Assembly (NCBI GenBank): GCA_944325575.1
Contig: CALVAR010000001.1
Span: 62,001-126,000 of the forward strand
From: Candidatus Gastranaerophilales bacterium
GTDB lineage: Bacteria > Cyanobacteriota > Vampirovibrionia > Gastranaerophilales > Gastranaerophilaceae
Length of the DNA stretch: 64,000 nt
Reading direction: 5' to 3'
Shown: piece by piece, positions 3,749 to 26,436 of the stretch
Position numbering within the stretch: the first letter of the stretch is position 1
Layout of the letters: the number at the start of each line of letters is the position of its first letter
Notes under the pieces: model-generated
What the model was told of the DNA's origin: nothing
What the model saw: only the letters and a program-made list of their open reading frames with translations
Database searches by the model: none
Translations under genes and position numbers: made by a program

Positions 3749-3765
3749 ATCACCCGGTTTACCTA

Positions 3766-4479
3766 TTAATATTGGTAACCTTGCTGCGGTGTAAATGTAA
3801 CCTGCTGATCAAGTACAATGTTTATTACGCTGCCGGCAGGAATTGTTGCAGGTATTCCTTTGTCCCATATAGATTTTGCAAGACCTGCTCCTGCGCCGAC
3901 AGCTGTTCCGTATGCTGCCCCTTTACCTACTTCTCCGCCTGATAAAGGTCCGAATATTACACCTGCGACAGCACCTGCTGCGGTTCCAATAGCTATGTCT
4001 TTGGCATATTCTGTTGCGGATTCTGCTTTTGTTCCGCCTTTTATTAATCCTGTACCGTCATCAGTTTGAATTTTTCCTGAAATAGGAATCATTTGTCCGT
4101 ATGGAGTGACAATGTTTGTGAATTTTACCATTAATTGACCGTTAATGCCTGCACGTCCTGATTTTTTAACTTGTATTACAGTTCCGTTTACTGAGCTGCC
4201 TATAGGTGCAATTAGTGTATTGTTATAATAAAAGTTATTTGATAAAGCTATACACACACTTTGTCCTAATGACAAACTTTCAGAGGATAATTCCATTGTC
4301 GCCGTTGCTGGAAAGCTCGTTCCGGACGGCACATATACAACCTTGCCCTGCAATGGAGTAAATTGCTGTGTTTCTGCCTGTGCAGAATATGAATATAAAT
4401 CAAAGGAACCTGCTCCTATTGTGATTAATGATGCTAAAAGAAGTGTTGAAACAACCTTTTTTGCTTTCATTTTAATCAT
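3766..4479 (-). CDS. Secreted glycine-zipper protein
   Basis: This 237-residue protein has a clear signal peptide (KMKAKKVVSTLLLASLITIG, with cleavage probably near AQAE). The mature part has a beta-rich region (about 40-140) resembling the outer-ring fold of VirB10/TrbI-like proteins (LIAPIGSSVNGTVIQVKKSG, TPYGQMIPISGKI). A glycine zipper follows (about 165-200, AAGAVAGVIFGPLSGG and GTAVGAGAGLAK), then a C-terminal strand region. Glycine zippers insert in or associate with membranes. The gene lies between bamA and tonB on the same strand, which suggests an envelope role. The start is supported by GGAGG 8 nt before the ATG. No specific function is assigned. Confidence 0.75.
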   Translation of the reverse strand: MIKMKAKKVVSTLLLASLITIGAGSFDLYSYSAQAETQQFTPLQGKVVYVPSGTSFPATATMELSSESLSLGQSVCIALSNNFYYNNTLIAPIGSSVNGTVIQVKKSGRAGINGQLMVKFTNIVTPYGQMIPISGKIQTDDGTGLIKGGTKAESATEYAKDIAIGTAAGAVAGVIFGPLSGGEVGKGAAYGTAVGAGAGLAKSIWDKGIPATIPAGSVINIVLDQQVTFTPQQGYQY

Positions 4480-4575
4480 TGCCTATCCTCCGTATCTAAT
4501 TTTAATTGTTATTGTTTTTAACGATTATTTAATTATATTGTTCATTTTTAATCTGTCAAAGTAGACGATTGTATA

Positions 4576-6807: not shown

Positions 6808-9800
6808 ATGGATTTTTCAATAGGTAACTTAAACGGCACTAATGCCAATATAAGCAGTATGATTTCGCAATTGATTGCGAAAAAAACATCTTCGATGAAT
6901 TCTTTGCTTGATCAGAGAGCATCTATTGAAAATGCTCTTGCGACTTTACAAAATTCTTCACTCGGCATAGGTTCTATTAACAATTCGTACAGCTCACAGA
7001 TTGCATCTTTGCAGGATTCTATAGATGCAATGAAAGAACAATACACTATCAATGCAAACAAACTAAACACTATAAACAGTCTTAATAACAGCTACAATAA
7101 AACTGTATCCACATTAGATGATTATATACAGAGTTTAAAAAATCCAAATCCAAATGATTCGTTAGTCTCAGGCTCAAGCTCTAACGGTAATGTAGCTGGT
7201 GTTGATGTTGATAATTCAGCTAATCCGCAAAGAATAGAGCTTTCTGTTTCTCAGCTTGCTACTTGTTCCGTCTTAAAGAGCGGTATAATCAGCGGAACAT
7301 CTATTACTGGCAATACTAAAATTACAGACCTGTTTGCCGGTAATTATGACAGTGCTTCCAACACAATTAGTTCACTGCGTACTGATATTTCAGAAAGTAT
7401 GAAACTTTCTGAGCTAGGTGTTAAAAGCGGCAGCTTTAAGCTTGGCTCACGTGTTATAACAGTAAAATCGGATGAAACAGTCGGCGATTTAATTAATAAA
7501 ATAAATGCTGACTCTAACTACACTGCAAAAATCGACAGAGCAACTGGTGCTTTCACTATATCCGCAAAATCAGGCAGCTCAGTAGCTATTACAAATGCTG
7601 TAGGAGATTTAAACGTAAGCGGAAATCTTTCCACAACAACTAAACTTGAAGATTTGGGAATAAAAAGCGGCGCATATTTTGTTGGCGGAGTCCAGATTGA
7701 TGTTGCTGACGGTGATACGGTCGGCGTACTTATCGATAAACTTGAGGCAGAGGGATTTAATGCTTCTATTCAAACTGATACTAATAATCCTTCATCCAAG
7801 GTCTTAAGCATAACAGATTCTAACGGCAATAAAGTAAGTACAGAAGGGACAAATTTTGCTTCAGCGGCAGGGTTTACAGTTTCTGAAGGTACATTCAGTA
7901 TAAACGGCGAAACTTTTACAATCGGTTCAGACACAACAATTGATGATTTGCTGTATCAGATTAATAAAGCTACTGACGACGGCGTAGGCGCAATTTTTAA
8001 AGACGGACAGATAGTTCTCACTGCCAGCAAAACAGGCGCTGTAGAGATAAATGTTGAAAAAGGTTCTTCAAACTTTACTAATGCTGTAGGTTTTACTACC
8101 GGCGGTGTAATGAACACAGGCAACCTTGTAATGGGCAGCGATGGTTCTTATGTAACTTTAAAGGGTTTAAATAGCGGTATAAAAGGTTCTGATATAGCCA
8201 AGGCTGACGGAAGCGGTAAATTTACTTCCGGTAATTTTCTGATTTCATACAGCAAGATTGATGATCTTGGAAATGCTACTAATGAAATGCTTACAACAGA
8301 AATCGTTGTAGAAGACGGCGATACAATTAATGATATTATTCAGAAAATTAAAAATCAGACTACACAAAAATATACAGACTCAGAAGGTGTAGAACGTACA
8401 AACTACTTGCAGGCAGAGATAGTAGACGGACATTTTCAAATCAGACAAACTGCAAAGGGCGCTGATTTTGATATAGCCGTACAGGCAGGTTCATCCACTT
8501 TTACAAGCTATGTGGGGCTGACAAAAGACGTTGGCACTGGGGTATCTACAAGCGGAAGCGCAACAACTTATACCGGTGTAAATGCTGTTACTGACTCGAC
8601 AACATTTACAGAGGGCAGTTTTAAAATTACGGCTTCATTGGCGAATAACCCTAACAAAACAGAAACTGTAACAATTGAAGTCGGTGCTAATGAGACTCTC
8701 CAATCTGTAATGGATAAAATTAATAATTCAGGTCTTGCTATAAGAGCACAGCTTGTAACGGCTTCTGATGGTACACAGAGATTGCAGCTGGCACACAATA
8801 ACTATGGCAGCGGTTATCAGATATCCGTTGAGGCAGGTGATACAAACTTTACCAATGTAGTAGGCTTCACCACATCTGTTTCAACAGGAGTATCAAATGA
8901 TGGTTCAAGTTCTACATTGACAGGTATTGTGACAGGGCTTGATAAAAATACAACAGGATACAAAGACGGCTCTTTTGTAATTTCGACAAATAAACTTTCT
9001 TCTGACGGCAAAACCGCATCATCCGAGATGGCATCGGCAATAATCGAGGTAGATTCTTCAATGAGCCTGCAGGATATAATGGATAAGATTAATTCTGCAA
9101 CATATAAGGATGCCTCCGGCAATGATGTCGATTTAGGACTAAGAGCTTCTCTTACTTCAGACGGCAGAATCCAGATTTCTCAGATACACGGCGGCGAAGG
9201 CTTTGATATAAAAGTAGAAGCCGGTGATACCAATTTTACACAGGAAGTTGGCCTGACAAAAGACGTTACTGTCGGAGTTTCAACGGGATCTACATCATCT
9301 TATATTATGGGGACAAAGACCTATAACGGAACATTTACAGAGGGCTCTTTTAAAATTACAACAAATAAAGTTGGAGCTGACGGCAGTGCTTCTTCGGAAA
9401 TGATTTCGGTTGATGTAAATATAGAAGCCGGAAAAACACTGGCACAACAGCTTGATTCTATAAATGCACAGTTAAATTCAATCGGACTTTCAGCTTCTGT
9501 TATTGCTGACGGCGCAGACGCAGGTAAAATTAAAATAGAACAATTGAATTCCGGTGCAGGCTTTGATATCAAAATAGAAGCAGGCAGCACAGATTTTACG
9601 GAAAAACTCGGACTGACAACACAGGTTTCAACAGGTGTGTCAAACGACGGTACATTTGCTTATGTTCTTGGTAAAAATGACCTGTCAAATACTGCGGGAT
9701 ATACAGCAGGTGACTTTACCGTTACAACAAATAAAACCGATGCAGAGGGCAATCCTCTTGATGAAATGCAGTCTGTTACGGTAAAACTGCAGGCAGGTCT

Positions 9801-12800
9801 TTCTGCACAGGAAGCTGTAAATTCTATTAACAGCCAGCTTGCTTCTATCGGCTTGAGCGCAACAATAGAAGACGGAAAAATTAAAATTTCCCAAACTAAC
9901 GCAGGTGCAGGATTTGACATAAAAATCGAAGGTGGCAGTACAAACTTTACGGAAAAAGCAGGACTTACAAAAGATGTCTCTGTCGGTACATCCACAGACG
10001 GTACTGCAACAAAAATAGTAGGCAATAAGAACGTTACCTCTTCGCAAAAAGGGTTTAGCGAAGGTTCATTTACAATCACTTCCGGCAAAACCGGCGAAGG
10101 TGCCACAGTGACAATAGATATTTCTGCAAATGATACCATACAGAGTGTAATAAACAAAATTAACAGCTCGGGTATTGATGTATCCGCTTATATAGATGAT
10201 AACGGCAAATTTGTTATCCAGCAAAATAATGCAGGTCCTGACTACTTTATTACGGTTGAGGCGGGCAATACAGACTTTACGCAGGTTGTAGGCATTACAG
10301 CAAACGTTACAACTGGCGTTTCAAACGAAGCCCAGAATGCTACCCTGACGGGTACAATAGGCAATCTCAATCCCGGTATGACATTTACCGAGGGCGAATT
10401 TGTTATTACAACAAACGACGTTACCCACGGAACACAAGAGGGATACTTTGCCGACCCGAATAAATTCCTTTCAACAACAATATCAGTGGCAAAGGGCGAC
10501 ACCCTTCAGGATGTTATTGATAAGATTAATCAGCAGGGTGCGTCCATAGGTATTTCCGCTTCTTTGACATCGGATGGCAAGATTCAGCTTTCACAGTTGA
10601 ACGGCGGAAGCGGTTTCACTATATCCGTTACGGCCGGTTCTACAAACTTTACGGAAAAAGTAGGACTTACTGCTGCGGTTTCTGCAGGTGAATCAACAAA
10701 CGGCTCTTATACTAATATAACCGGTACAAATAATGTTTCCGGCACAGATACTGCGGGTGTAGGACATATTGACAGAGATACCGCTATAGCTATGGGTTAC
10801 ACTGTTGTATCTATGGCAGATGAACTCGTAAATGCCCTGAAATCAGGCGCTGATAAGATAATGCTCACAGGCAACATCGACATGTCCGGTGTTGACTATA
10901 CTCCTGATTCTTCAAATGCATTTAGCGGTGTGTTTGACGGCAACGGATACTATATATCCAATTTGAAGGTAAATTCTACTGTCGGAGGCGGTCTTTTTGG
11001 TGGTTTGGATGGTGCAGTCGTAAGGAACATAGGATTTGTAAATGCTGATATCAAAGCCGCAGGCGCTGTAGGTGTACTGGCGGCTGTTGCTTCCAATTCG
11101 ACAATTTCCAATGTCTATGTAAAAGACTCTAGTGTGGCATCTACAGCTGGCTCTGTGAGTGCTTTGGTCGCTTTTACCAGTGGTGATGTTTCGATTAACA
11201 ATGTAGTTGTTGAAAACACTACTATTTTCGGCAATAACTCGGATCAGGGCGGGCTTGTCGCAAGGGTTGTCGACGGTAATTTATCAATTTCAAATTCTGC
11301 AGTTGATGATATTCTCTTTACTTATACACCTTCAGGGAATAGACCTGTTGGCGGTTTTATAGGAATAGTTTTTCAAGGTAATGTTTCTGTTTCGAACAGT
11401 ATTGCAAATTTTGTATCATCAAATACATCTCAGGCTGGCAGCATAGCAGGGGTAGTTTTAGAACCCGGGATTGTTTCATTTAATGTTTCAAACGTAGTAT
11501 CAATGAGCAATTTGAATCCGGTTGTTAACGATTATTCAGGTAACTCTTATACCGGTGCTGTCGAAGAGGTCGGATACAATGATTTTGCTTCTGTTACTAC
11601 AGACTTGTCCGGCATAGAAATTGTCAAAGATGACAGCTCTTCATCAGGATACAGAATATCAAATACAATTCTTGAAAATACGCTGGGTGAATCGGACGGC
11701 TCTGACAGTAAATTTACAACCGGTAATTTTAAAATCACTGCAGGCACAAGCGGAAACGAAATCACTGCCGAAATAACTGTCGAAGACGGTGATACAATCG
11801 ACGATATTATAAACAAAATTAACTCTGCAGGTCTTGGCGTTACGGCTTCCATAACGGCTGACGGGAAATTTACTATTACATCAAACTCAGCAGACCCTGA
11901 CTTCCGTATAAAGGTAGAATCGGGCTCATCTGATTTCCTTGCTTATGTCGGAATGGCATCTGCTGTACAAAATACAGGTATACTCACTTCCGGCAGCGAC
12001 GCAAACCAGTATACAACACTGACCGGCTCCGCAAATCTGACTAACGGCAATGAGGCAATTACATCGGGCTCGTTTAAAATAAACGGAGTCACTATAGAAG
12101 TTTCCGGCACTATAGAAAACGCGCTAAACCAGATAAATAACTATACGTCCCAAACAGGCGTGGTTGCCGAACTTGTGCAGAATGACTCGGGCAGTTACAA
12201 CGTTGTCCTTCGTGCCGCCAAAACAGGCTCCGGTACTTCTATCTATGTAGAAGGCGGTACATCCGACTTTGGCGTAGTCGCTGGCTTGACTACACAGTCA
12301 GTAGGCGGCGGAGCAGCTCTTGGTACGGAAGGCGTAAAACAAACAATAACAGGTTCAAAAGATGTTGTACATCAATTGACGGAAGCCGAAGCAACAGCAC
12401 AGGGATATACTGTTATACACAATGCAAGCGAATTCGCCAGCAAAATAAATGCAAACAAATCAGGCAAGTTTATGCTGATGGGCGATATTGACCTGAGCTC
12501 TGTATCCTATACTGCAATATCCGGCTTTTCCGGTACACTCGACGGCAACGGGTATACAATAGAAGGCCTTTCGGGTTCCAGCGGCCTTTTCGAGACAACA
12601 TCTGCCGGTGCAACCATTAAAAATTTAAATATTGAAAATTTTGTTCTAAATAATACAGGTAATACCCAAACGGGTATACTTATTGATAATGCTATAGGTG
12701 CTTTGACTGTTGAAAACATAAATGTTTCCAATGCTTCTGTAACCGGTACAACAGTCGGTCTTATTGGCAGCTCACTCAACACTTCTATGCATACTCCTTT

Positions 12801-15800
12801 AAATGTTAATAATATATTTATAGACAGCAATGTAAAATTTAATGGCGATGGTGCCGGTTCTGTTATAGGATCATCTGTTGCTGCAGATTTGAATTTTTCA
12901 AATATTGAAATCCATGCACAAATAGAAGCAGAGAAAGTCCTTGGCGGTATAGTCGGGTCCTTTAGTACAGGTATAATTGAATTTGATAATATTCTGTTTG
13001 ATGGTGATTTGTATTCTTCTAACACTTCAGTACAAGCCGGTGCTCTTTTTGGAAAAGTTTTAGATGAAGACATGCAAAACAGATTGCATAATATTTATTT
13101 GTCGCCAACTACTCATGATATGTCGAATCCTCTTGTCTCTATGGATTCTAGCGTAATAAAGGCGAGTGTCTTTGGAAATTCAGTTGAATATCATAATTTT
13201 GAAGTTATAAATTTCTATTTTGATTCAGATTCCATTGAATATGATGATTTAATAAATGCAAATCATCTTAGCGGTATAAACGGACAATCTTTTGAACAAA
13301 TCACTTCAAACAGACAGTTCTATGCTTCGCCTTATACGCAGATATCTGCAGGCACGGTAAAAGTCAACGGTACTACGATTACTCTTACGGCAGGTACTAT
13401 AGATGAAGCTATCGCACAGATAAATGCAAAATCCTCACAAACAGGAGTAACTGCTGCTATAAAAGACGGCAGAGTAGTCTTTATGAGCGATTCTGCTTTC
13501 ACTGTTGCCGAGGGCACAAGCGACTTTGTCCAAAAGACAGGTACTGCAGGCTATACGATAAACAGCGTAACCTCAAGCACAAGAGGCGACGTTGTTACAG
13601 GTACTCAGGATCTTAACAAAATTTCTGCCGAAGAAGCTGAAGACCTCGGCTATACTGTGGTAACAACAAAATCCGAACTTATTTCCGCATTGCAGGCGAA
13701 CGAAAATATCATGCTGATGAATGATATTGATATGTCAGGATCATCTAATAATTTTAATTATTCCGGCATATTAAACGGCAACGGCTATACTATCAAAAAT
13801 CTTACAAGCACTTTGTTGGGTACTGCTTATAACGGCACTATTATTAAGAACCTGAAAATCGACGGCGCAAATGTCGGCGGTAGCGCTATTGATTCAATAC
13901 TTGTTACAGAGGCTTACGGCTCTGTTACATTTGAAAATATAGAAGTTACAAATTCTGAAATAAACGGAGGCGGTGCTCCTTATCAAAGCGGCGTCCTTGT
14001 CGGACTTGCAACCAACGGTTCATCATTAACCTTCAGGAATATAAAAATAGCTGATTCCGTCTCTATATCCGGTGCAAGTAATATCGGCGGTCTTGCCGGT
14101 ACATTGGACAATGCAGACGCTCTTGTCCAGAATGTGCAGGTAAGTGCTCATATTGACGGGGACAATTATCTGGGCGGTATTTTCGGCTCTGTATCCGGTA
14201 ATGTTACTTTTGATAATGTAGTGTCAAACGGCTCTATTTTCTCCGATGCACAAATAAGCAATCAATTTGCAGGCGGCTTTGTAGGCTATACCTCCAATGC
14301 AAACACAAAATTAACATTTATGGATTCTTATGCAGATGTAGATATGCAGATGGATGAAGTTTGGGTCGAAAATTCAGGCACCAATATGACTCTCTGGGCA
14401 AGTAACCCGTTATATATAAATCAGTTTGTCGGCTATCTCTATCAGGGATCTACATCATTTAAAAATTCATATTATCTTAGCAGCAATGCATTTACTGCTA
14501 AGGGTGAACTTGGTACAGCCACTGCAACTGAAAAAACTATTGATTCTTTTGACGAAAACTGGTCTTCACGCAAGGTTTCGCTCACAGAAGACGAGGCTGT
14601 TGCTCTCGGATATACTGTTATACACAACGCAAACGAATTCCGATCAAAAATCGCATCCGACCTTGACGGCAAGTTTATGCTTGTGGGCGATATTGATCTG
14701 AGCACAGTTTCGTATAGTACTTTATACAATTTTAAAGGCACTCTTGACGGCAACGGTTATACAATAAAGAATTTTACAAGTTCAACTGCATATGGCCTGT
14801 TTTCTGCTACACAAGACGGTGCAACCTTCAAAAATCTTACACTTGATAATATTAATTTGTCTGTATCTTCGTCATCAGACACAGGGCTTTTAATCGGTAT
14901 GGCTACGGGCGATTTTACTATAGATAATATCGTAGTAAAAAATTCTTCTGTTAATGCACACTCAGCCGGCGGCTTGATAGGAGGAATAAGTTACACTGCT
15001 TCAATTCCCGTAATAGGCACAATAAATAATATTTATATTGATAAATCAGTAGAAATTAACGGAGGAGCAGCAGCCGGCGGTGTTGTTTCTTCAGCTGCGT
15101 ATACAGGCAGAAATGCTGCAGGATCTCATTTGTATATAAGCAATGTTTCTTCTTACGCAAAAGTAAGCACCACCTCCGCGGGCGGCGACGGAAGATATGG
15201 TGCCGGCGGTATAGTAGGTTCTACTTCCATGAACCTGGATATTGTAAATGTCCGTGTTGGAGGTTCTGTTTCCGGTGCAAAATATGCAGGCGGAATTTTA
15301 GGCAGTTTTTATAAAGGCACTAATACAAATACCGCTGAAATTAATATAAGTCAGGCATTTTTTACAGGTTCTCTTTCAACTGCATCCGGTACATCAGGAG
15401 GCGGTATCGTCGGTATGCAGTCAGGTGATATTACAAACTCTTCTTATGTGGAAGTTAATGTTAGTAGTTCCTATTATTCCAACAGTTCATATACTGACAG
15501 GTTTGGAGCAACATATGCTTCAAATACCGCAACGCTGGCAAAAGACAGAGAATTCTTTTCTTCTCAGTATTTGACATACTGGACGAAAAATCCCAATACA
15601 GACCCGGGTGATTGGGGTTTGGGTCCAAGCATCCTTGCTAATGCTAATGGTATAAGTATAAACGGTACAAATATATCTCTGGCAAACGGTGATAATATAA
15701 ACACTGTTATCAGCAAAATTAATGAACAGTCCTCTACAACCGGAGTTACTGCAGAGCTTGTTGACGGATATATACAGTTTTATTCCGACGAGAAGTTCTC

Positions 15801-18800
15801 TTTGAAATCCCCGAGCAATGCGACATCACCAGCGGGTTCTTTCGTGACAAGTGATTTTATGAAGCAACTCGGTGTAACGGGCGATATGTATGGGGTCAAT
15901 GTTCTTACAAGTTCCGTAAGCGGATTGAATCGCGATACTGTTCTTGACGGGCTTAGCGCAGGTACTTTAAATCTGCAGTCACAGCACGGTGAGAAAGCTG
16001 ATGTCACAATTGGCGCATCTGACACATTAGGCGATATTATAGATAAAATAAACAAAACTGATTACTTTAGAGCGGGTCTGGACTCTGAAGGTAGATTCTA
16101 TATAGAAGATTTGAAACCTTATGATAATAACAATGCTATGGTTATAGGCAGTGGTCCCATTAAATATGTATTTAATGTTGATAATTCGGATACAAATTTT
16201 GAAAACCTTCTAGGTTTAGGCTCTTATTCCACAACTTATGAAGATAAGTCACAATCATCAATATTTACGACCTTAAAGGGTTCATCTTCCGTTACCGGCA
16301 ACGAAACTCTGGATGCCGGTACGTTTACTCTGATGCTCGGCGACAAGAGCCAGAACTTTACCGTTAATCAGGGTGAAACAATAAACTCCGTGCTTGATAA
16401 AATCAATGCTTCTTCCATCGGGATAAGCGCTTATATAGAAAACAACAAGATTGTACTTATTACGGATGAACAGACACCTGACAATATTGCCCTTAAAGAA
16501 GTATCGGGTAACTTTGGCACGGTCAGCGGTTTGACTACTATTACAAACTATGGCGGAGAGTCTGTTGTTGGTCATGAAGGTTCTTATACTACGCTTAAAG
16601 GTTCTAATACCGTAGCTGCTGGCATTTCAAAAGCAGAAGCCGAAGCAAAAGGCTATATTGCTGTTTCTACTGCTCAAGAACTCAGAAATGCAATGCTCAA
16701 CAGCAGTACGTCAAAGACAATTGTTCTTATGAATGACATTGATATGTCAGGATTCGGTACTTCTATATCAAGCTTTGCCGGTACTATAGACGGTAACGGA
16801 TATACTCTCAAAAATTATACAAATACAGACGGGCTTATTAAAACAACCAAAGGTTCTGTCACTATTAAGAACCTCAATATAGACAACTTCAATATTTCCG
16901 GTTCGTCGTCAAGCGATTATCACTCATTGCTGATTGATAATACTTCTTATACCGTGACTGTCGATTCCGTAAATATTACAAATTCTCAGGTAAACGGACT
17001 CCAGCATAGCGGGGCGCTTATAGGCTATTCTTCACGTACGGTAAGTATAAATAACGTAAGCATTGACGAAAATACACTGATTAAAGCAAGCTCTCACTAT
17101 GGAGGAGCACTCATAGGCTCTATGAGCGGTCTTATCCTTTCTATCAATAATGTATATTCAGCTGCTGAGATTGACTGCTGGGATGAAGCAGGAGGACTTG
17201 TCGGTTATGCAACTTCAACTCTAAAAAGCTTGACTGTAAAAGATGTATTTATTGAAGGAACAATCAATGTTTCCAGCACGTCCGGATACTCCGGTGGTCT
17301 TGTCGGCAGATTCGCATCCAATTCTGTAAGTGATGATATATCAAATGTCATTATAAACAGTGATTTTCTTGTAGCGCATGAAGATGCAGATTCTGCAACA
17401 GGAAGTTTTCACGCAAATATTCTAAGCAATGCCTCTTTGTCCGGTGAATATATTTTCTACAACTCGGATAAAACTCCGTCTGTTGTAAATACCGACGGCG
17501 CTCAAGCTATTTCAACCGTAGGTAGTAAGACAGGTTATGATAAAAATACATTTGTATCTAATAAATTTACGCAGGTCTCTGCAGGCACTATACAAATTAA
17601 CGGGCAGAATATTATTCTGTCGGGCGGTAATATAGGCACTGCAATCAATGAAATCAATGAATACTCTTCTAAAACCGGAGTGACTGCTTCTGTCGAAGAC
17701 GGAAAAGTTGTATTTAAAAACACTCAATACGGCTCAAACGGAATCAGCATCACTGCAGGTACAAGCGACTTTGTTGAAGTAACGGGAACTGCCGGCTATG
17801 CAATATCTGCTCCTACGACTACTGTAGAAGGCGGCCGGGTGACAGGCACTGCCGGTATTGATACTTCCACTCGTTATACTGCTGAAGAAGCTCAGGCTAT
17901 GGGATATACGGTTGTAAAAACAGGCCAGCAGCTATTAGACGCTCTTGTTGCAAATAAAGACAAGATAATGCTCATGAACAATATTACAATGAGCTCTGCT
18001 GCTGTTATAGAAAATTTTGACGGTATTTTAGACGGCAACGGCTATACAATAAGCGGTATGAATAATATGCTCATAAATTCCACCGAGGATGGTGCAGTTA
18101 TCAAAAACCTCAAAATCGTCGGTGCTAATGTTTCAAATAATGCTATGTATACAGGTTTCCTTGTCGGACAGGCTAAAGGTTCAATAACTTTTGAAAACAT
18201 AGAGATAACAAATTCTGCTCTGACAGGTACGACAATGGTCGGTGCACTGGTAGGACGGGTAGCTTCAAAATCTGTATTTTTAGCTGACAATATCTATATC
18301 GGCGATGATGTTACTATTACTGGCGGTCAACAGGTAGGCGGTCTGGCAGGAATTGTACTCTCAAATACAAAATCTGTAGTGACAAATGTTACTGCAGCAG
18401 CGCAAATTCAAGCATCTTCATATCTGGGACTCGGCGGCATAATAGGGTATGCATATTCTGATGCAACTTTTGAAAATGTAAAATCAGAGGGTTCAATTAA
18501 CACAACATATACAGGTAGTGGCACTCTGTATATGGGCGGTTTTATCGGATATCTGTCTTCCACAAAACAAAATAATATTATTTTTAAAGACACATATGCC
18601 AAAGTAAAAATGACAAAAGGTTTGGCATCTCCATCCAATTCCGCCACTGTTAACCAGTATGTAGGTTATAATAATAACCTATCTAATACTATATATAATG
18701 TAGATAATGCAAAATTCTATAGAGGCGGTGCATATGGCGGTACTGATTCTATGGAAATCGGTACTGCTACGACATCAAGCACTGTACCTTCTGATATAGG

Positions 18801-21800
18801 TTTTGATGACAACTGGACTGTAAAATCCGTAATTCTGTCTGAAACAAAGGCTGCTGCACAGGGTTATACTGTTATTCACAATGCTCAGGAGTTCGTAGAC
18901 AAGATAAAAGCCGACCTGGACGGCAAGTTTATTTTGATGGGAAATATTGATTTCAGAAATGTTTCTTATACTTCTATTTCCGGCTTTAGCGGCACATTAA
19001 ACGGCAACGGATATACCATAAAAAATCTATCTGCGGAAAACGGACTGTTTGCTACTACGGAAGACGGTGCTGATATCAAAAACCTGACTCTGGACGGCTT
19101 TACTATAGCAGGTGCTACTACGGCAGGTGCTCTGATAGGTACTGCCAACGGCTCTGCAAATATTGAAAATATTCTCTTAAAAAATACTTATTTTGATGTC
19201 AGTTACATGGGCGGGCTTGTTGGCACTTTTAGTGCAGAAAACAGCGTTTTAAACATAAATAATGTATATGTAGACTCATCTGTTACAGCAGAGGATACTT
19301 TGCAAGCAGGCGGTATACTCGGAACTTCTGCATATGATTCCTCTACTGTAATTATCAGAAATGCAGAATCTTATGCTACACTGAGCACATTATTTGTTGT
19401 GGGCGCAGGCGGTATTGCATGTGCAATCAGCTCAGATGCTGTTATAACCAATGTCCGCACAGGAGGCAGTCTGAGCGGTTTTGGCAGCGGGGGAATTGTG
19501 GCTGCAGTAGATACATCAGTAGACGCAAACGGCGACGTATTTATATCCAAAGCCTATACCTCTGCCCAAATAACTGGTTCAACTAACGATGGAAGCCCTG
19601 CTGAAGCTATTGTCGGTCATAACGACACATCTGATGGCGGAACTCTTACCGTTAAGGACTCTTATTATAGTAACAATTCATATTCTAATGATAACGGCGG
19701 TACATACTCCGCTTCTGCAAGCAGTCAAAAATTCTATCAGGCAGCTTACACTCAGGTTTCGTCCGGCACAATTAGCATAAACGGTGTGTCTGTCAGACTC
19801 GAAGAAGGCTCTATAGCTTCGGCTATAGGTACTATAAATGAGTATTCTGATCAAACAGGGGTAAAAGCTTATATAAATTCATCTAACAGAATTGTCTTTG
19901 ATGCTATAGAAGGCTCAGGCCAGGGTGTAACTATTACAAAAGGAACCAGTGATTTTTATTCCAAAGCTGTAAATTCTTTTAACTCATCCTTATCTCACTC
20001 TATTACAAAGACAACCGGATCTGTAAAGCTGACAGAAGATATAAAATTGGATGGACTGTCAGATGGCAGCATCACTATAGACGGTAAAACAATTAAATAC
20101 ACTTCTAATATGACTGTAGGTCAGGTTATTGATCTTATAAATGAAGCTGCAACAAGCCTTAATGGCACGCCTATAGCAGGACATTATTTTGCAGCGGCTT
20201 TTACTGCAGGTTTGGATGAACAGGGCAGGTTCTTTATCAAGACAGACGGCGATATTTCATTTACTGGCAATTTAGCTAAATTTATAGGTTTTGAATCCGG
20301 TGTTGTCTCATCTGGACCGGAGCTTGTTCTTGGATATGATGAAAAGTTCTCTACTCTTACCGGAACAAAAAATGTTAATGTTAACTCTGATGTATCAAGC
20401 GGTGATTTCTATATCAACTATAACGGTAAATCACAAAAATTTACAGTAGGTGATAATGAAACCATTCAATCTGTTATGGACAAAATCACTAATTCCTCTT
20501 TGGGTGTTACCGCTACTATTCAAAACGGAAAAATCGTTATTACGGCAAATGAAGCTAATTCCGAAAGAATCTATATAACTGACGGTACAAGCAACTTCTC
20601 CGAACTTGCGGGATTTACGTCAGAAGGCGCGCAATCCGGTACTACCGTGCAGGGTGCTGATTCTGTTTACATGTCTTCTAATACTGCGCTTAGTGCTCAG
20701 GGTACCTACTCTGACGGCGATTTCTATGTCCATCTGACGGATACTGACGGAAATATAACTGATACTGCAAGAATTGAGATTGCCGCATCTGATTCTATAC
20801 AGGATATTATTAACAAAATCAATGATTCAGGTCTCGGTGTTACTGCTTATATCGATGAAACAACCGGCAGACTGGCAATAAAACGTGATTCTTCAACCCA
20901 GGCAGGCGGTGTGCTCGTAACAAAAGGTACAAGCGATTTTACTAACAAAATAGGATTTACCTCCGGCGGTGAACAGAATGTTGTAACCAATGCCGGTTCT
21001 CAGGCAGAACTTGTCTCTCAAAACACTGCTACAAATGCGAAATTCTCTGACGGTAACTTTATAATTCAGATTACTGACAAAGACGGCAATGTTACTTCAG
21101 AACACGTTTTTGAAGTTTCTTCAGGTGATAGCGCGCAAAAAATTGCGCAGATGATTACCGATGCAGGTATCGGGCTTACTGCATATATTGATAATACTAC
21201 TGACAAAATGGTCATAAAACGTAATACCGATTCCGGCGAGGGCGGATTTATCATACAAAAAGGTACTTCTGATTTTACTACCGTTATGAACTTTACATCC
21301 GGCGGTTATGAAATCGGCGTTAAAGAAGATGGTGAAACTGCTTCTATTACTTCATTGTACAATGTATCATCAGCAGGTAACTTTACAGCAGGTACATTCT
21401 ATATTGACGGTACCGAAATCACCATTACGGAAGCTGATTTAAAATCCGCAAACAAGATACAGACAATTCTTGACAGAATCACAGAATTGACAGATGTAGT
21501 GGCAACTCTTGATAATCAAAACAGAATTGTACTCACCAAAAAGTCTTCTGCTGGTGAAGGCGAAATTGAAATAGTTAAGGGCACGTCTGATTTTACTTCT
21601 AAATTTGGATTTACATCAGGCGGATACCAGAATGCAATTGTTACTGACGGTACAACAGCAACTATTACCTCAGGTGTTACTTCTTATAATACCAAAGTGT
21701 CAGCAGGAGATTTCTATCTGCAGCTTACAGGTGATAATGCAACTGATCCTATAAAAATTACTGTTGATGAAGGTGATACTGTTGGTACTATCATTGACAA

Positions 21801-24576
21801 GATTAATGCTATGGATATTGGTGTTGCTGCTTCCTGGGACAGCTCTGCTAACAAAATCGTTATTACTAGAGATGCAGAAACAGGCGAAGGCGGTATCAAT
21901 GTTATAAAAGGCACATCTGATTTTACAAACCTTGTCGGATTTACATCGGGCGGTCAGCAGGATCCCGCTACAGTTAACGGTAATACTGCTTCTATAACTT
22001 CAAATAATCAGGTTGGTCCTGACACTGCCATTACAAAAGGTGATTTTATTATCAGATTTAACGGCACTGATCATGTAATTGAGCTTACTAAAGATACAAC
22101 TATAGATGAAGTTATAGATAAAATTAATCAAATCGACGGTTTGACTGCTGCTTATGATGATACTACCAAAAAGATTACTATCACCCGTGACGGTGACAGC
22201 GGCGAAGGCAATTTTGAAATAATTAAGGGTACAAGCAACTTTACGACAGTTGCAGGATTTACATCCGGCGGCACACAGTCTTCTTCCGCTATTAGAGGCA
22301 GCAAAGCTTCTATTACTTCTACAAACTCTATCAATGATTCACAGAAGTTTACTCAAGGTGACTTTACTATTAATCTTACAGGCGAGAATGCAGCTTCTAT
22401 AAAGATTAATGTTGATACAAATGATACTATTATTTCTATCGTTGATAAAATCAATGCACTCAATGCCGGTGTTACGGCAAGATATGACAACACTACAGGG
22501 CTTATTACAATTTCCCGTGATGCTGAAACAGGCGACGGTTCTATAGAAATTGTCAAAGGTTCGTCTAATTTCACTAATGTTGTCGGCTTTACACAGGGCG
22601 GCTCATCAAGTGCATCCTTCAACGATGGCGAATATGCAGAAATTACTGCACAAAAATCTGCTGCCGCAAATCAACATTTTGGCGCAGGTGACTTTACAAT
22701 CAGGCTTACAGGTGACAATGCATCGAGCATAACTATAGATGTTACTGCCGACGACACTATGCAGTCTATTATCAATAAGATTAATGCTGCTGATGCAGGT
22801 GTAACTGCTTATCTTAATGATGACAACAAGCTTGTTATAAAACGTGATGCTGATACAGGAGTCGGCGGTATAGAAATTGTAAAAGGCTCAAGCTCCTTTA
22901 CGACGGATATAGGTTTGACTACCGGCGGCGATGAATACTCCGGAATTCATGATGCCGGCGAATCCGCTAAAATAGTCAGCACTCAGGATGTATCTACAGC
23001 ACAGGGATCTTATACATCAGGCAATTTCTTTATACAAATGCTTGATAAAGACGGCAATCCCGAGGCAGGCGGATTGATTCAGATTGACATAAATAAATCC
23101 GGTAATACAGTAGATGATATTAATACAATTATAAACAATATCAATGCTAAGAATGCCGGTATAACGGCTTCTATAGAAAACGGCAAGCTCGTGTTGACAC
23201 GGGATGAATCACTGGATGCAGGTTCATTTGTAGTTCTTAAAGGTACTTCTGACTTTACAAACGTAATTGGTTTGACTGCAGGCGGTTCCCTGCAAGATGG
23301 TGTATATGAAGCTGGTAATGCGGCTACTCATACTGTTTTAACAAGTCAGGATCTTGGTAAAAAACTGGTCAGTGATTCTATGACACTTGGATCAATAGGT
23401 GTTAAGACAGGCACATTTAGGATTAACGGTGTTGATATCAATGTTAAGTCAAGTGATACAATTTACGATCTTGTTTCAAGAATTAATTCTGTATTCTCTG
23501 ATCCTAAGTATGAAGGTATAGCAGTTACTGCTTCTTATGAAAATGGTGAGATGGTTCTGCGTTCAAAAGAAGCATCCTCTACAGCTAGAGTTACTGTGGA
23601 ACGAGGTACTTCTAATTTTACTGACATTGCTAATTTTACAAATTCATATCAAAATTCATCAGACCTTGGTATTTTAGAAGAAGGTCACAACGCCCACTTT
23701 ACTATTAACGGTAAAGAATATGATATGGCTCTTGATCTTAAAGATATAACTGATGACAATGTTTACAACGGCAATAATCTTATCTATCTTGATGCTGATG
23801 GAAATGTTGTTACAAGTGCTGATGATGCTTCTATCACAATTGAAGTAAAACAAACTGGCAGCACAACTATAGACATCGGCAGAAACCTCTTAAATGACAG
23901 TGTTGAAAAACTGCAAAGCTTTGTAAACAGATTTAATACTGCAATGGATGCAGCCGCTAATCCGATAATGTCTGATGACACTGAGTTTGCTGCATTTATA
24001 AATCAAATCAAGTCTGCATTAACAAGCAATATTGGCTCTATGAACAAAATTACCCAAAAATTGGCTGAAATCGGTATTATAGTAAAAGTTACCGGCGGAA
24101 CTAATTCAAATATGGGCACCGTCGAGATGTCTCTGTCAAAAACTAACGGCAAATATGACTATGTTGAAGCTTTCTATGATGATCCGCAAAAAGTAATGGA
24201 TTTGATTATCGGTGATGACTCCAATCCGCTTGATTACAGTGTAGCAGGTGCATTTACAAGATTGTCTGATACTATACATTATGCTCTTGAAAATAACAGA
24301 GGCGGATATTTCAAAGTTACTCCGCGCTCTTTAGAAGCACAGCAAAAGGCTCTTAAACGTGAAATTACTAAAACAACTTTTGATTTGAATGAATTGAAAA
24401 ATACTGCAGCCGGTGACAACGGTATGCAAGGACTCAGTGAATACTTGCTGCAGCTTGAACAACAATATCAACTCATAAATGAGGCAATTATTGCTCTTAA
24501 TAAACAATACAGTTCATCTATAACAAGACTTGTTTTAAACAAAAACAATAGCGCGTTTAATCCGATTGTTTCATAA
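6808..24576 (+). CDS. Giant FliD-like repeat protein, 5,922 residues
   Basis: Both ends look like the flagellar filament cap FliD. The first 130 residues form a coiled-coil D0-like start (ISSMISQLIAKKTSSMNSLL) followed by ELSVSQLA. The last 300 hold a FliD C-terminal domain (about 5,680-5,922), including LQSFVNRFNTAMDAA and EYLLQLEQQYQLINEAI. The interior is repetitive. About 25 flagellin-IN-like units of 90-120 residues carry motifs such as DTIQSVINKINSSG and KGTSDFTNxxGFTSGG. Seven beta-helix/GLUG-like modules have conserved GYTV glycines at residues 1330, 1866, 2281, 2601, 3282, 3699 and 4019, each followed by a DGNGYTI turn. FliD proteins are usually 400-700 residues. There is no signal peptide and very little cysteine, as expected for flagellar export. 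It could be a cap-derived adhesin or filament decoration. The ribosome binding site is weak. Confidence 0.85.
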   Translation: MDFSIGNLNGTNANISSMISQLIAKKTSSMNSLLDQRASIENALATLQNSSLGIGSINNSYSSQIASLQDSIDAMKEQYTINANKLNTINSLNNSYNKTVSTLDDYIQSLKNPNPNDSLVSGSSSNGNVAGVDVDNSANPQRIELSVSQLATCSVLKSGIISGTSITGNTKITDLFAGNYDSASNTISSLRTDISESMKLSELGVKSGSFKLGSRVITVKSDETVGDLINKINADSNYTAKIDRATGAFTISAKSGSSVAITNAVGDLNVSGNLSTTTKLEDLGIKSGAYFVGGVQIDVADGDTVGVLIDKLEAEGFNASIQTDTNNPSSKVLSITDSNGNKVSTEGTNFASAAGFTVSEGTFSINGETFTIGSDTTIDDLLYQINKATDDGVGAIFKDGQIVLTASKTGAVEINVEKGSSNFTNAVGFTTGGVMNTGNLVMGSDGSYVTLKGLNSGIKGSDIAKADGSGKFTSGNFLISYSKIDDLGNATNEMLTTEIVVEDGDTINDIIQKIKNQTTQKYTDSEGVERTNYLQAEIVDGHFQIRQTAKGADFDIAVQAGSSTFTSYVGLTKDVGTGVSTSGSATTYTGVNAVTDSTTFTEGSFKITASLANNPNKTETVTIEVGANETLQSVMDKINNSGLAIRAQLVTASDGTQRLQLAHNNYGSGYQISVEAGDTNFTNVVGFTTSVSTGVSNDGSSSTLTGIVTGLDKNTTGYKDGSFVISTNKLSSDGKTASSEMASAIIEVDSSMSLQDIMDKINSATYKDASGNDVDLGLRASLTSDGRIQISQIHGGEGFDIKVEAGDTNFTQEVGLTKDVTVGVSTGSTSSYIMGTKTYNGTFTEGSFKITTNKVGADGSASSEMISVDVNIEAGKTLAQQLDSINAQLNSIGLSASVIADGADAGKIKIEQLNSGAGFDIKIEAGSTDFTEKLGLTTQVSTGVSNDGTFAYVLGKNDLSNTAGYTAGDFTVTTNKTDAEGNPLDEMQSVTVKLQAGLSAQEAVNSINSQLASIGLSATIEDGKIKISQTNAGAGFDIKIEGGSTNFTEKAGLTKDVSVGTSTDGTATKIVGNKNVTSSQKGFSEGSFTITSGKTGEGATVTIDISANDTIQSVINKINSSGIDVSAYIDDNGKFVIQQNNAGPDYFITVEAGNTDFTQVVGITANVTTGVSNEAQNATLTGTIGNLNPGMTFTEGEFVITTNDVTHGTQEGYFADPNKFLSTTISVAKGDTLQDVIDKINQQGASIGISASLTSDGKIQLSQLNGGSGFTISVTAGSTNFTEKVGLTAAVSAGESTNGSYTNITGTNNVSGTDTAGVGHIDRDTAIAMGYTVVSMADELVNALKSGADKIMLTGNIDMSGVDYTPDSSNAFSGVFDGNGYYISNLKVNSTVGGGLFGGLDGAVVRNIGFVNADIKAAGAVGVLAAVASNSTISNVYVKDSSVASTAGSVSALVAFTSGDVSINNVVVENTTIFGNNSDQGGLVARVVDGNLSISNSAVDDILFTYTPSGNRPVGGFIGIVFQGNVSVSNSIANFVSSNTSQAGSIAGVVLEPGIVSFNVSNVVSMSNLNPVVNDYSGNSYTGAVEEVGYNDFASVTTDLSGIEIVKDDSSSSGYRISNTILENTLGESDGSDSKFTTGNFKITAGTSGNEITAEITVEDGDTIDDIINKINSAGLGVTASITADGKFTITSNSADPDFRIKVESGSSDFLAYVGMASAVQNTGILTSGSDANQYTTLTGSANLTNGNEAITSGSFKINGVTIEVSGTIENALNQINNYTSQTGVVAELVQNDSGSYNVVLRAAKTGSGTSIYVEGGTSDFGVVAGLTTQSVGGGAALGTEGVKQTITGSKDVVHQLTEAEATAQGYTVIHNASEFASKINANKSGKFMLMGDIDLSSVSYTAISGFSGTLDGNGYTIEGLSGSSGLFETTSAGATIKNLNIENFVLNNTGNTQTGILIDNAIGALTVENINVSNASVTGTTVGLIGSSLNTSMHTPLNVNNIFIDSNVKFNGDGAGSVIGSSVAADLNFSNIEIHAQIEAEKVLGGIVGSFSTGIIEFDNILFDGDLYSSNTSVQAGALFGKVLDEDMQNRLHNIYLSPTTHDMSNPLVSMDSSVIKASVFGNSVEYHNFEVINFYFDSDSIEYDDLINANHLSGINGQSFEQITSNRQFYASPYTQISAGTVKVNGTTITLTAGTIDEAIAQINAKSSQTGVTAAIKDGRVVFMSDSAFTVAEGTSDFVQKTGTAGYTINSVTSSTRGDVVTGTQDLNKISAEEAEDLGYTVVTTKSELISALQANENIMLMNDIDMSGSSNNFNYSGILNGNGYTIKNLTSTLLGTAYNGTIIKNLKIDGANVGGSAIDSILVTEAYGSVTFENIEVTNSEINGGGAPYQSGVLVGLATNGSSLTFRNIKIADSVSISGASNIGGLAGTLDNADALVQNVQVSAHIDGDNYLGGIFGSVSGNVTFDNVVSNGSIFSDAQISNQFAGGFVGYTSNANTKLTFMDSYADVDMQMDEVWVENSGTNMTLWASNPLYINQFVGYLYQGSTSFKNSYYLSSNAFTAKGELGTATATEKTIDSFDENWSSRKVSLTEDEAVALGYTVIHNANEFRSKIASDLDGKFMLVGDIDLSTVSYSTLYNFKGTLDGNGYTIKNFTSSTAYGLFSATQDGATFKNLTLDNINLSVSSSSDTGLLIGMATGDFTIDNIVVKNSSVNAHSAGGLIGGISYTASIPVIGTINNIYIDKSVEINGGAAAGGVVSSAAYTGRNAAGSHLYISNVSSYAKVSTTSAGGDGRYGAGGIVGSTSMNLDIVNVRVGGSVSGAKYAGGILGSFYKGTNTNTAEINISQAFFTGSLSTASGTSGGGIVGMQSGDITNSSYVEVNVSSSYYSNSSYTDRFGATYASNTATLAKDREFFSSQYLTYWTKNPNTDPGDWGLGPSILANANGISINGTNISLANGDNINTVISKINEQSSTTGVTAELVDGYIQFYSDEKFSLKSPSNATSPAGSFVTSDFMKQLGVTGDMYGVNVLTSSVSGLNRDTVLDGLSAGTLNLQSQHGEKADVTIGASDTLGDIIDKINKTDYFRAGLDSEGRFYIEDLKPYDNNNAMVIGSGPIKYVFNVDNSDTNFENLLGLGSYSTTYEDKSQSSIFTTLKGSSSVTGNETLDAGTFTLMLGDKSQNFTVNQGETINSVLDKINASSIGISAYIENNKIVLITDEQTPDNIALKEVSGNFGTVSGLTTITNYGGESVVGHEGSYTTLKGSNTVAAGISKAEAEAKGYIAVSTAQELRNAMLNSSTSKTIVLMNDIDMSGFGTSISSFAGTIDGNGYTLKNYTNTDGLIKTTKGSVTIKNLNIDNFNISGSSSSDYHSLLIDNTSYTVTVDSVNITNSQVNGLQHSGALIGYSSRTVSINNVSIDENTLIKASSHYGGALIGSMSGLILSINNVYSAAEIDCWDEAGGLVGYATSTLKSLTVKDVFIEGTINVSSTSGYSGGLVGRFASNSVSDDISNVIINSDFLVAHEDADSATGSFHANILSNASLSGEYIFYNSDKTPSVVNTDGAQAISTVGSKTGYDKNTFVSNKFTQVSAGTIQINGQNIILSGGNIGTAINEINEYSSKTGVTASVEDGKVVFKNTQYGSNGISITAGTSDFVEVTGTAGYAISAPTTTVEGGRVTGTAGIDTSTRYTAEEAQAMGYTVVKTGQQLLDALVANKDKIMLMNNITMSSAAVIENFDGILDGNGYTISGMNNMLINSTEDGAVIKNLKIVGANVSNNAMYTGFLVGQAKGSITFENIEITNSALTGTTMVGALVGRVASKSVFLADNIYIGDDVTITGGQQVGGLAGIVLSNTKSVVTNVTAAAQIQASSYLGLGGIIGYAYSDATFENVKSEGSINTTYTGSGTLYMGGFIGYLSSTKQNNIIFKDTYAKVKMTKGLASPSNSATVNQYVGYNNNLSNTIYNVDNAKFYRGGAYGGTDSMEIGTATTSSTVPSDIGFDDNWTVKSVILSETKAAAQGYTVIHNAQEFVDKIKADLDGKFILMGNIDFRNVSYTSISGFSGTLNGNGYTIKNLSAENGLFATTEDGADIKNLTLDGFTIAGATTAGALIGTANGSANIENILLKNTYFDVSYMGGLVGTFSAENSVLNINNVYVDSSVTAEDTLQAGGILGTSAYDSSTVIIRNAESYATLSTLFVVGAGGIACAISSDAVITNVRTGGSLSGFGSGGIVAAVDTSVDANGDVFISKAYTSAQITGSTNDGSPAEAIVGHNDTSDGGTLTVKDSYYSNNSYSNDNGGTYSASASSQKFYQAAYTQVSSGTISINGVSVRLEEGSIASAIGTINEYSDQTGVKAYINSSNRIVFDAIEGSGQGVTITKGTSDFYSKAVNSFNSSLSHSITKTTGSVKLTEDIKLDGLSDGSITIDGKTIKYTSNMTVGQVIDLINEAATSLNGTPIAGHYFAAAFTAGLDEQGRFFIKTDGDISFTGNLAKFIGFESGVVSSGPELVLGYDEKFSTLTGTKNVNVNSDVSSGDFYINYNGKSQKFTVGDNETIQSVMDKITNSSLGVTATIQNGKIVITANEANSERIYITDGTSNFSELAGFTSEGAQSGTTVQGADSVYMSSNTALSAQGTYSDGDFYVHLTDTDGNITDTARIEIAASDSIQDIINKINDSGLGVTAYIDETTGRLAIKRDSSTQAGGVLVTKGTSDFTNKIGFTSGGEQNVVTNAGSQAELVSQNTATNAKFSDGNFIIQITDKDGNVTSEHVFEVSSGDSAQKIAQMITDAGIGLTAYIDNTTDKMVIKRNTDSGEGGFIIQKGTSDFTTVMNFTSGGYEIGVKEDGETASITSLYNVSSAGNFTAGTFYIDGTEITITEADLKSANKIQTILDRITELTDVVATLDNQNRIVLTKKSSAGEGEIEIVKGTSDFTSKFGFTSGGYQNAIVTDGTTATITSGVTSYNTKVSAGDFYLQLTGDNATDPIKITVDEGDTVGTIIDKINAMDIGVAASWDSSANKIVITRDAETGEGGINVIKGTSDFTNLVGFTSGGQQDPATVNGNTASITSNNQVGPDTAITKGDFIIRFNGTDHVIELTKDTTIDEVIDKINQIDGLTAAYDDTTKKITITRDGDSGEGNFEIIKGTSNFTTVAGFTSGGTQSSSAIRGSKASITSTNSINDSQKFTQGDFTINLTGENAASIKINVDTNDTIISIVDKINALNAGVTARYDNTTGLITISRDAETGDGSIEIVKGSSNFTNVVGFTQGGSSSASFNDGEYAEITAQKSAAANQHFGAGDFTIRLTGDNASSITIDVTADDTMQSIINKINAADAGVTAYLNDDNKLVIKRDADTGVGGIEIVKGSSSFTTDIGLTTGGDEYSGIHDAGESAKIVSTQDVSTAQGSYTSGNFFIQMLDKDGNPEAGGLIQIDINKSGNTVDDINTIINNINAKNAGITASIENGKLVLTRDESLDAGSFVVLKGTSDFTNVIGLTAGGSLQDGVYEAGNAATHTVLTSQDLGKKLVSDSMTLGSIGVKTGTFRINGVDINVKSSDTIYDLVSRINSVFSDPKYEGIAVTASYENGEMVLRSKEASSTARVTVERGTSNFTDIANFTNSYQNSSDLGILEEGHNAHFTINGKEYDMALDLKDITDDNVYNGNNLIYLDADGNVVTSADDASITIEVKQTGSTTIDIGRNLLNDSVEKLQSFVNRFNTAMDAAANPIMSDDTEFAAFINQIKSALTSNIGSMNKITQKLAEIGIIVKVTGGTNSNMGTVEMSLSKTNGKYDYVEAFYDDPQKVMDLIIGDDSNPLDYSVAGAFTRLSDTIHYALENNRGGYFKVTPRSLEAQQKALKREITKTTFDLNELKNTAAGDNGMQGLSEYLLQLEQQYQLINEAIIALNKQYSSSITRLVLNKNNSAFNPIVS
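12376..16600 (+). repeat. Internal tandem duplication, copy A
   Basis: This part of the giant gene encodes three beta-helix modules with conserved GYTV glycines at residues 1866, 2281 and 2601, and the IN-like repeats that follow. Copy B repeats the same order with module spacings of 417 and 320 residues, against 415 and 320 here. Shared landmarks include the linker ending GTAGY before the second module and LDGLSxGxxxx with GRFxI after the third. Boundaries are approximate. Confidence 0.7.
16601..20620 (+). repeat. Internal tandem duplication, copy B
   Basis: This is the second copy of the block of about 1,400 residues, with module glycines at residues 3282, 3699 and 4019, offset from copy A by 1416, 1418 and 1418 residues. 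The second module of each copy shares IKNLKIxGANV and the third shares YTVIHNA with LDGKFxLxGxID. The copies have diverged clearly, so the duplication is not recent. Confidence 0.7.
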
Positions 24577-24687: not shown

Positions 24688-26436
24688 ATGTCAATATCAT
24701 TTTCAGGTGTAGGTTCAGGATTACCCATCGATGAGTGGGTTACAGCTTTAGTGAAGGTGGAGCAGGACAAAGTCGATGCTCTGGAAGATGAAAGAGATGC
24801 ACTTACAGACAAGCAAAATATATTAAACAGTTTGAGTTCGGAATATAGCTCAGTTCAAAGTGCTACTTTGACTTTTACAGATTCTTTACTTGGTGCTGGA
24901 TCTGATATATTTTCTAAAGTCTCTGTATCAGCTTCTGATACAAGTGTTGTCACAGCGACTGTTACGCAGTTTGCCACTCCTGCAACTATAGAACTTGAAA
25001 TTGAATCTTTGGCATCTTCTTCCATTAAAACTTCTGAATATAATGAGGCCTTGAAAGATTCTTCAAAAAAACTTTCTGATCTCGGTGTTACTACTGCGGG
25101 TAACTTCCAGATAAACGGTGCAACTATTAATGTTACTCCTGATATGACAATCGACTCTCTTGTATATCAGATTAACAGCTCAACCTCGGCAAATGTAAAA
25201 GCTTCTTTGAAAAACGGACGTTTAGTCCTTGAAAACAGAGAAGCAGGTACTAAACAGGTTGAAGTCACCGGTACTGATTTAGTAGACGGGACACATAATT
25301 TTGCAGAACTCTTGGGGCTCGATAAAACATCTTCCGCTCAAAATTCTAAGAAAAATGATTTATTAAATACAGGTTCTACAACTCTTGCTGAATTGGGAGT
25401 AGAACAAGACGGAAATATAAATATTAATGGCACAGCGATAAATATAACAACTGATATGACAGTTGACGAATTTATCAGTGCAGTTAATTCATCTGATGCA
25501 GGTGTAACAGCTTCTGTTCAAAACGGCATAATGGTTTTGGAAAATACTGACGGAAGCAACGATCCTATAGATATGAATGGTTCAAATGTCGCTGGCAGCA
25601 GAAATTTTGCTGAATTAATGGGATTTACTTCTTATAATGATAGCGGCACTAATGCAGTATTCTATCTTAATGGCGACAGAAAAGAATCTACTTCAAATTC
25701 TGTATCCAGCGATGTAACCGGGATTTTGGGTCTGTCTTTAGACCTTTTAACAACAACTGACGGTGATCCTATTACAATCGAAATAACCAGAGATTACGAT
25801 TCAGAAGAGCCTCTTACTGCTTTGCAAACTTTTGTTGAGGCTTTTAATAAAATTGTTACTAATACAAACTTATATACTGATTCCGATTCAACTGAAAAAA
25901 ACGGCGGTATATTATCCGGTGAAAATAACCTTGTTCGTATTAAAAATAGTTTAAGAACTCTTGTTACTTCTACTGTTGAAAATTCGGGACAATATAAATC
26001 ATTGGCTGACATTGGTATTACAACAGGTGCACCGGGTCTAGATGTGTCTGCCGATACTACACAACTTATTATTGATGAAGAAAAGTTTTTAGATGCTTAT
26101 GAAAAAGATCCTGCATCTGTTAAGGCTTTGTTAATCGGTGATAATTCATCGGGCACTACACAAGAAGGATTGATGCAAAAACTTCAAACACAGCTCGAGG
26201 CTGCTACTGATCGTACATCAGGATATTTTGCGGCTAGAGGTGATTCTCTTGCGTCACAAATTTCGAATATGAATGACAAAATTGATAAAAAGCAAGAATA
26301 TGTTTATTCATATCAGGAAAAATTAACAAATCAGTTTAATTATATGGACCAGATGATAGCACAGATGAACTCTCAGTTTACTGCAATGCAGCAGCAGCTT
26401 GCTTCAATCGGTGTAAATATGGGCAGTTCATCATAG
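24688..26436 (+). CDS. fliD: Flagellar filament capping protein FliD (hook-associated protein 2)
   Basis: This 582-residue protein has the normal FliD layout. The N-terminal domain starts with VGSGLPIDEWVTALVKVEQ, close to the family pattern SGLDxxxxVxxLVxxE. Two flagellin-IN-like repeats follow at about 130-215 and 230-315 (LSDLGVTTAGNFQINGATI and LAELGVEQDGNININGTAI). The C-terminal FliD domain has coiled-coil ends (LQTFVEAFNKIV; YVYSYQEKLTNQFNYMDQMI). FliD caps the growing filament and helps flagellin fold. A GAGGTG ribosome site precedes the ATG. It lies 111 bp downstream of the giant gene on the same strand, and the two are paralogous at their ends. Its stop codon abuts the stop of recR on the other strand. 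Confidence 0.92.
   Translation: MSISFSGVGSGLPIDEWVTALVKVEQDKVDALEDERDALTDKQNILNSLSSEYSSVQSATLTFTDSLLGAGSDIFSKVSVSASDTSVVTATVTQFATPATIELEIESLASSSIKTSEYNEALKDSSKKLSDLGVTTAGNFQINGATINVTPDMTIDSLVYQINSSTSANVKASLKNGRLVLENREAGTKQVEVTGTDLVDGTHNFAELLGLDKTSSAQNSKKNDLLNTGSTTLAELGVEQDGNININGTAINITTDMTVDEFISAVNSSDAGVTASVQNGIMVLENTDGSNDPIDMNGSNVAGSRNFAELMGFTSYNDSGTNAVFYLNGDRKESTSNSVSSDVTGILGLSLDLLTTTDGDPITIEITRDYDSEEPLTALQTFVEAFNKIVTNTNLYTDSDSTEKNGGILSGENNLVRIKNSLRTLVTSTVENSGQYKSLADIGITTGAPGLDVSADTTQLIIDEEKFLDAYEKDPASVKALLIGDNSSGTTQEGLMQKLQTQLEAATDRTSGYFAARGDSLASQISNMNDKIDKKQEYVYSYQEKLTNQFNYMDQMIAQMNSQFTAMQQQLASIGVNMGSSS

Follow-up and report, generated by a model that had tools for sequence, protein, structure and literature searches.

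A probable tandem block duplication in a giant FliD-like gene of Candidatus Gastranaerophilales

A giant FliD-like gene of Candidatus Gastranaerophilales most probably carries one in-frame tandem duplication of a block of about 1,400 codons, which would have arisen in the common ancestor of four species (the genomes G000, G022, G010 and G015), after their split from a fifth species that has one copy (G002), with both copies kept since. The gene lies in a window of 64,000 nucleotides, the whole stretch of DNA that was analysed, and its source genome is G000, from a gut bacterium with kinship to the cyanobacteria. Mechanistically, the duplicated block would comprise a leading module, a linker of Flagellin_IN (IN) type, two more beta-helix modules and an IN-type tail, and its copying in tandem and in frame would likely have been caused by unequal recombination between repeated IN or module sequences. 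Both copies would then have been retained under weak purifying selection, diverging until their silent sites were saturated, and the likely effect would be a longer beta-helix rod between conserved FliD-type ends, shown at the filament tip for binding.

The host gene, its modules and a putative flagellar role

The giant gene is a single open reading frame of 5,922 amino acids, and it and its downstream neighbour have the following features outside the duplicated block:

6808..24576, + strand: giant FliD-like gene, host of the duplication (single open reading frame; FliD_N over cut-off; FliD-like C-terminus by profile-profile comparison; orthologues in four other genomes)
7012..7263, + strand: FliD_N-like N-terminal region, residues 69-152 (Pfam PF02465)
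10759..11424, + strand: module 1, residues 1318-1539, of the same family as the other modules and outside the duplicated block (module HMM)
23245..24531, + strand: FliD-like C-terminal region, residues 5480-5908 (hhalign against eight ordinary FliDs)
24688..26436, + strand: ordinary FliD of 582 residues, directly downstream of the giant (FliD_N and FliD_C over cut-off)

Architecturally, the giant is a FliD-like protein, in which FliD-type ends enclose Flagellin_IN repeats (at least 14 stretches) and seven related modules (pairwise scores of 190-478; 190-236 for module 1 against all others) that are predicted to be IgA1-protease-type beta-helices without the protease motif. At the N-terminal end, PF02465 (FliD_N) scored 25.2 bits, or 30.6 bits in the genome search, against a cut-off of 24.8, with a match that covers profile positions 17-95 only and a score of 21.7 bits when a 3,000-residue half of the giant is the query. 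The C-terminus aligned with ordinary FliDs of the family at a probability of 99.8 and an E-value of 5e-30 (hhalign, n = 8), and Pfam alone left FliD_C unmatched in the giant at E 0.01. Since NF005833, the curated FliD equivalog, gave 60-71 bits, below its cut-off of 444, we name the protein FliD-like and not FliD. Evolutionarily, dN/dS was 0.24-0.39 in the duplicated blocks and 0.03-0.04 at the giant's ends, its best conserved parts, so the gene is maintained. Two antisense open reading frames inside it (9660-10157, 165 residues, and 12507-13073, 188 residues, both on the - strand) bear nothing that marks them as genes.

Structurally, PF05342 (Peptidase_M26_N) matched module 7 at 52.2 bits (cut-off 27.7). 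An AlphaFold2 model of modules 6-7 with the preceding linker (mean pLDDT 78.9) had its best solved-structure matches in IgA1 protease beta-helix domains (Z 24.8-28.5 over 242-273 residues), with the module 6 region at Z 28.5 against IgA1 protease 7uvk and the next other family at Z 17.6. The module profile found no match at E 0.01 among PDB sequences, though the fold search was clear; no HExxH zinc protease motif occurs in all 5,922 residues, and a Pfam search of the giant found no protease domain. A model of the C-terminal 443 residues, at a mean pLDDT of 38.8, was left unused. Elsewhere in the genome, a flagellin (L054, a 672-residue frame at G000:C1:269824-271095) has a module of this type flanked by flagellin ends, with about 41% identity to the giant's module 4; the module type is common to a flagellin and a FliD-like protein within one genome.

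Melainabacteria have been reported to be flagellated (PMC3787301). Several flagellins are encoded in the G000 genome, and the giant has BamA beside its N-terminal end and the ordinary FliD beside its C-terminal end in all five genomes (in G015 across two contigs), with one or both neighbours kept in several further genomes. Functionally, we posit that the giant may be a flagellar-tip adhesin or cap extension, which would be exported by the flagellar route and displayed at the filament tip, where the beta-helix rod would bind; fast-evolving modules between fixed ends fit such a predicted role. A FliD-derived protein could also act outside the flagellum, as a free secreted or surface adhesin, and here the ordinary FliD adjoining the giant and the giant's size, to our knowledge far beyond any known FliD, are points in favour; we hold this to be somewhat unlikely, given that both FliD-type ends are the parts best conserved, that the genome has several flagellins and that giant and ordinary FliD stay neighbours in relatives.

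Collinearity of the two copies

The first-pass annotation had proposed that modules 2, 3 and 4 repeat as modules 5, 6 and 7, and the module starts (residues 1862, 2277, 2597, 3278, 3695 and 4015) bear this out with offsets of 1416, 1418 and 1418 residues. The parts of the two copies are:

12367..13023, + strand: copy A, module 2, residues 1854-2072 (placed like module 5 but closer to modules 4 and 7 in sequence)
13024..13611, + strand: copy A, linker 2/3 with IN-like segment (best linker partner 5/6, score 259; motifs)
13612..14250, + strand: copy A, module 3, residues 2269-2481 (46.7% to module 6; own cross-species clade 99/97)
14251..14571, + strand: copy A, linker 3/4 (44% to linker 6/7, its best partner)
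14572..15282, + strand: copy A, module 4, residues 2589-2825 (47.4% to module 7)
15283..16614, + strand: copy A, Flagellin_IN-type tail (2828-3268 against 4228-4626, score 359, best partner)
16615..17277, + strand: copy B, module 5, residues 3270-3490 (module HMM; own cross-species clade 100/99)
17278..17865, + strand: copy B, linker 5/6 (pairs with linker 2/3; motifs)
17866..18510, + strand: copy B, module 6, residues 3687-3901, predicted beta-helix (AlphaFold2; fold match to 7uvk)
18511..18825, + strand: copy B, linker 6/7 (pairs with linker 3/4)
18826..19488, + strand: copy B, module 7, residues 4007-4227, Peptidase_M26_N match (PF05342)
19489..20685, + strand: copy B, Flagellin_IN-type tail (pairs with the copy A tail; Flagellin_IN matches)

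When residues 1850-3250 were searched against the rest of the giant (BLASTP), one HSP was returned (1850-3244 against 3266-4605, 34.8% identity, E 2e-178), and Smith-Waterman gave one collinear alignment that runs through the linkers (1643-3272 against 3049-4637, with 585/1503 residues, or 39%, identical). The two copies lie on the diagonal that a copied block should leave, unbroken at an offset of 1,416-1,418. The copies are collinear, adjacent and on the same strand, linkers included, as is expected of a tandem block. Among modules 2-7, the mean module-pair score was 433 at lag 3 versus 291, 319 and 262 at lags 1, 2 and 4 (lag 5 consists of one pair, 2/7, at 395), and (2,5)(3,6)(4,7) was the best of the 15 pairings of six modules; the similarity thus goes beyond generic module likeness. 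Modules 3 and 6 match each other best, as do modules 4 and 7, and each linker has its counterpart as the best partner available (L23/L56 259, L34/L67 116, L45/L78 359). That linkers of differing kinds each pair with their own counterpart is, in our view, the strongest evidence for block copying.

Finer details of the proposed repeat held in part. The motifs said to be shared by linkers 2/3 and 5/6 each occur exactly twice in the giant (SAGTxxxNGxxIxL at 2179 and 3590, GTAGY at 2245 and 3660), and the IN repeats after module 4 do match those after module 7 (2828-3268 against 4228-4626, 36%). The near-identical spacing is numerically exact (415 and 320 residues in the first set, 417 and 320 in the second) but owes something to chance, because indels are frequent and the same intervals vary in relatives (405-441 and 307-346). 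Upstream, the segment preceding module 2 is nearer to the segment before module 1 (score 267) than to that before module 5 (169), so the duplicated unit most likely begins with module 2 and closes with the IN tail (residues 1854-3269, repeated from 3270 to about 4626-4630); divergence is too great for the breakpoints to be read.

Copy number in relatives, age and the anomaly of module 2

Orthologous giants occur within the genus in G022 (6,553 residues), G010 (5,917), G002 (5,506) and G015 (5,196 + 1,497 residues, split over two contigs with a 77-nt overlap). Both copies are present in G000, G022, G010 and G015, four Candidatus Gastranaerophilales species, and one is present in G002, at the corresponding place: a self-match at an offset of 1,383-1,431 was found in G022, G010 and G015, and no self-match of about 1,400 residues was found in the G002 giant, which aligns to the giant of the window over 2112-4098 (with 1193-3244) and 4045-5506 (with 4436-5922). 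The earlier suggestion that the repeat records one growth step of the protein gains support from the two-copy carriers and one-copy G002, as one step among several. Some relatives differ further in module content, with module segments that G000 lacks in G022 (giant residues about 1304-1814) and G015 (contigs C29/C18); in G015, modules 1-2 seem absent from where they normally lie, and three modules stand within the N-terminal IN array.

Phylogenetically (paired values are support values in the module and species trees), modules 3, 5 and 6 formed cross-species clades in a tree of 36 modules, as did module 4 for three species, and not within-species pairs. The module 3 clade (99/97) and the module 6 clade (100/93) both excluded the single module of G002 (87/68), and the orthologues of modules 4 and 7 did not each form a clean clade. 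In the full-unit tree, the A and B copies separated at full support and G002 lay on the branch between, a three-way arrangement that is unrooted and alone cannot tell gain from loss. Species trees placed G002 outside the four carriers, with ClpC and ligase (98/97) and with BamA, FliD and ClpC (97/98), two sets that overlap in ClpC; ligase was left out of the second set because of its signs of exchange. By ligase alone, the raw identity of G000 is higher to G002 than to G015, and the DNA ligases of G022 and G010 (L063, L064) have a dS of 0.04, versus 0.39 for ClpC, which looks like ligase exchange between species.

The simplest account of this copy distribution would be a single gain after G002 had split off. 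Were the duplication older than that split, G002 would have lost or collapsed one copy by A-B recombination, a history that we judge unlikely: AU tests did not reject a grouping of G002's module with module 3 (p 0.28) or module 6 (p 0.42), and its IN tail is copy A-like and its leading module falls with module 5 (86/84), a mix that a collapsed hybrid might show, but the G002 block is nested within neither A nor B in any tree and, with G002 outside the carriers, one gain suffices. The duplication that we place after the G002 split is, judged by sequence divergence, old. Copies A and B share 50% DNA identity, and fourfold sites at conserved residues have an identity of 0.339, against 0.338 expected at saturation, so dS, put forward by the first-pass annotation as a check on the copies, cannot date the event. 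Between the giant and its G022 orthologue, dS is about 0.5-1.6 over most stretches of the gene, and 0.13 at 16807-17256 (residues 3334-3483, module 5) and 0.11 at 18157-18606 (residues 3784-3933, module 6), low values that suggest that species recently exchanged module patches.

Pairing within the block is firm for 3/6, 4/7 and all linkers but weak for module 2, which is nearer to modules 4 and 7 (scores 421 and 395) than to module 5 (354), 2/5 being the weakest pair. Diagnostic sites in module 2 favour the 4/7 type by 27 to 9; a clade of modules 2 and 5 was marginally rejected (AU p 0.038), and this clade with G002's leading module added was not (AU p 0.11). A head/tail mosaic of 4/7 and 5 types, at which sliding windows hinted, was not significant (Fisher p 0.15-0.44) and was set aside. 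Either a 4/7-type module would have replaced or homogenised module 2 once the block had been doubled, or modules 2 and 5 would have diverged faster, beyond recognition. This poor pairing, and the HNAxEF type that modules 2, 4 and 7 share, would also suit a gene in which no block was copied and modules were added singly, their order being a coincidence or the product of a regular alternation of module types; such a course is very improbable, given that three successive linkers, each of a different kind, find their counterparts, that 3/6 and 4/7 match mutually best and that the alignment runs on through the linkers. That the repeat is an assembly artefact is hardly credible. The genomes are draft assemblies, and in G015 the gene is split between two contigs, yet 61% of aligned residues differ between the copies and the same order recurs in independent assemblies.

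A recurrent gene class and its known counterparts

FliD_N-bearing frames of about 1,400-6,600 residues occur in many genomes and several genera of the family, mostly besides an ordinary FliD, and other giants have large self-matches of their own (G084, 1123-2080 against 2437-3414, 43%; G003, 862-2599 against 3897-5612, 31%; G135, 2863-3497 against 3523-4154, 54%). Block copying looks like a growth habit of this giant FliD-like gene class, of which the present duplication would be one well-resolved instance. Tentatively, we posit that the giant FliD-like family of gut Gastranaerophilales may be a modular tip adhesin, growing through block duplications and trading beta-helix modules from one species to another, with very long rods held at the filament tip by its conserved ends. 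A plasmid search gave no more than two remote matches, of which one is named GLUG motif-containing, and the open-access literature searched yielded no giant FliD. The one-copy relative places the duplication between two branch points and so fixes in time one step in the growth of an extremely large bacterial protein, and the recurrence of the class raises the questions of how such chains pass through the flagellar export channel and what use IgA1-protease-type beta-helices have at a flagellar tip.

Compared with the FliD filament cap (HAP2), the giant has the same FliD_N region and FliD-like C-terminal region with Flagellin_IN repeats between them, but it has 5,922 residues versus 582 in the neighbouring FliD, contains seven inserted modules, and its capping role is only putative. 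With the beta-helix domain of IgA1 protease (M26) it has the module fold in common, PF05342 being over cut-off in module 7, whereas it strings many modules in series and has neither HExxH nor a detected protease domain. Giant flagellins are described (PMC6248924) as enlarged flagellar proteins, with flagellins of more than 1,000 residues and thick filaments. The present giant would likewise be an enlarged flagellar protein, but is FliD-like and several times longer. In giant flagellins the enlargement reportedly lies in the middle region. Large modular surface proteins grow by in-frame, head-to-tail copying of multi-domain blocks, and a multi-domain block is copied head-to-tail here too, although this duplication is very old (silent sites saturated), is common to four species and has a one-copy relative. 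The mechanism of duplication is an ordinary one, and the giant protein is a fresh variant on a known theme.
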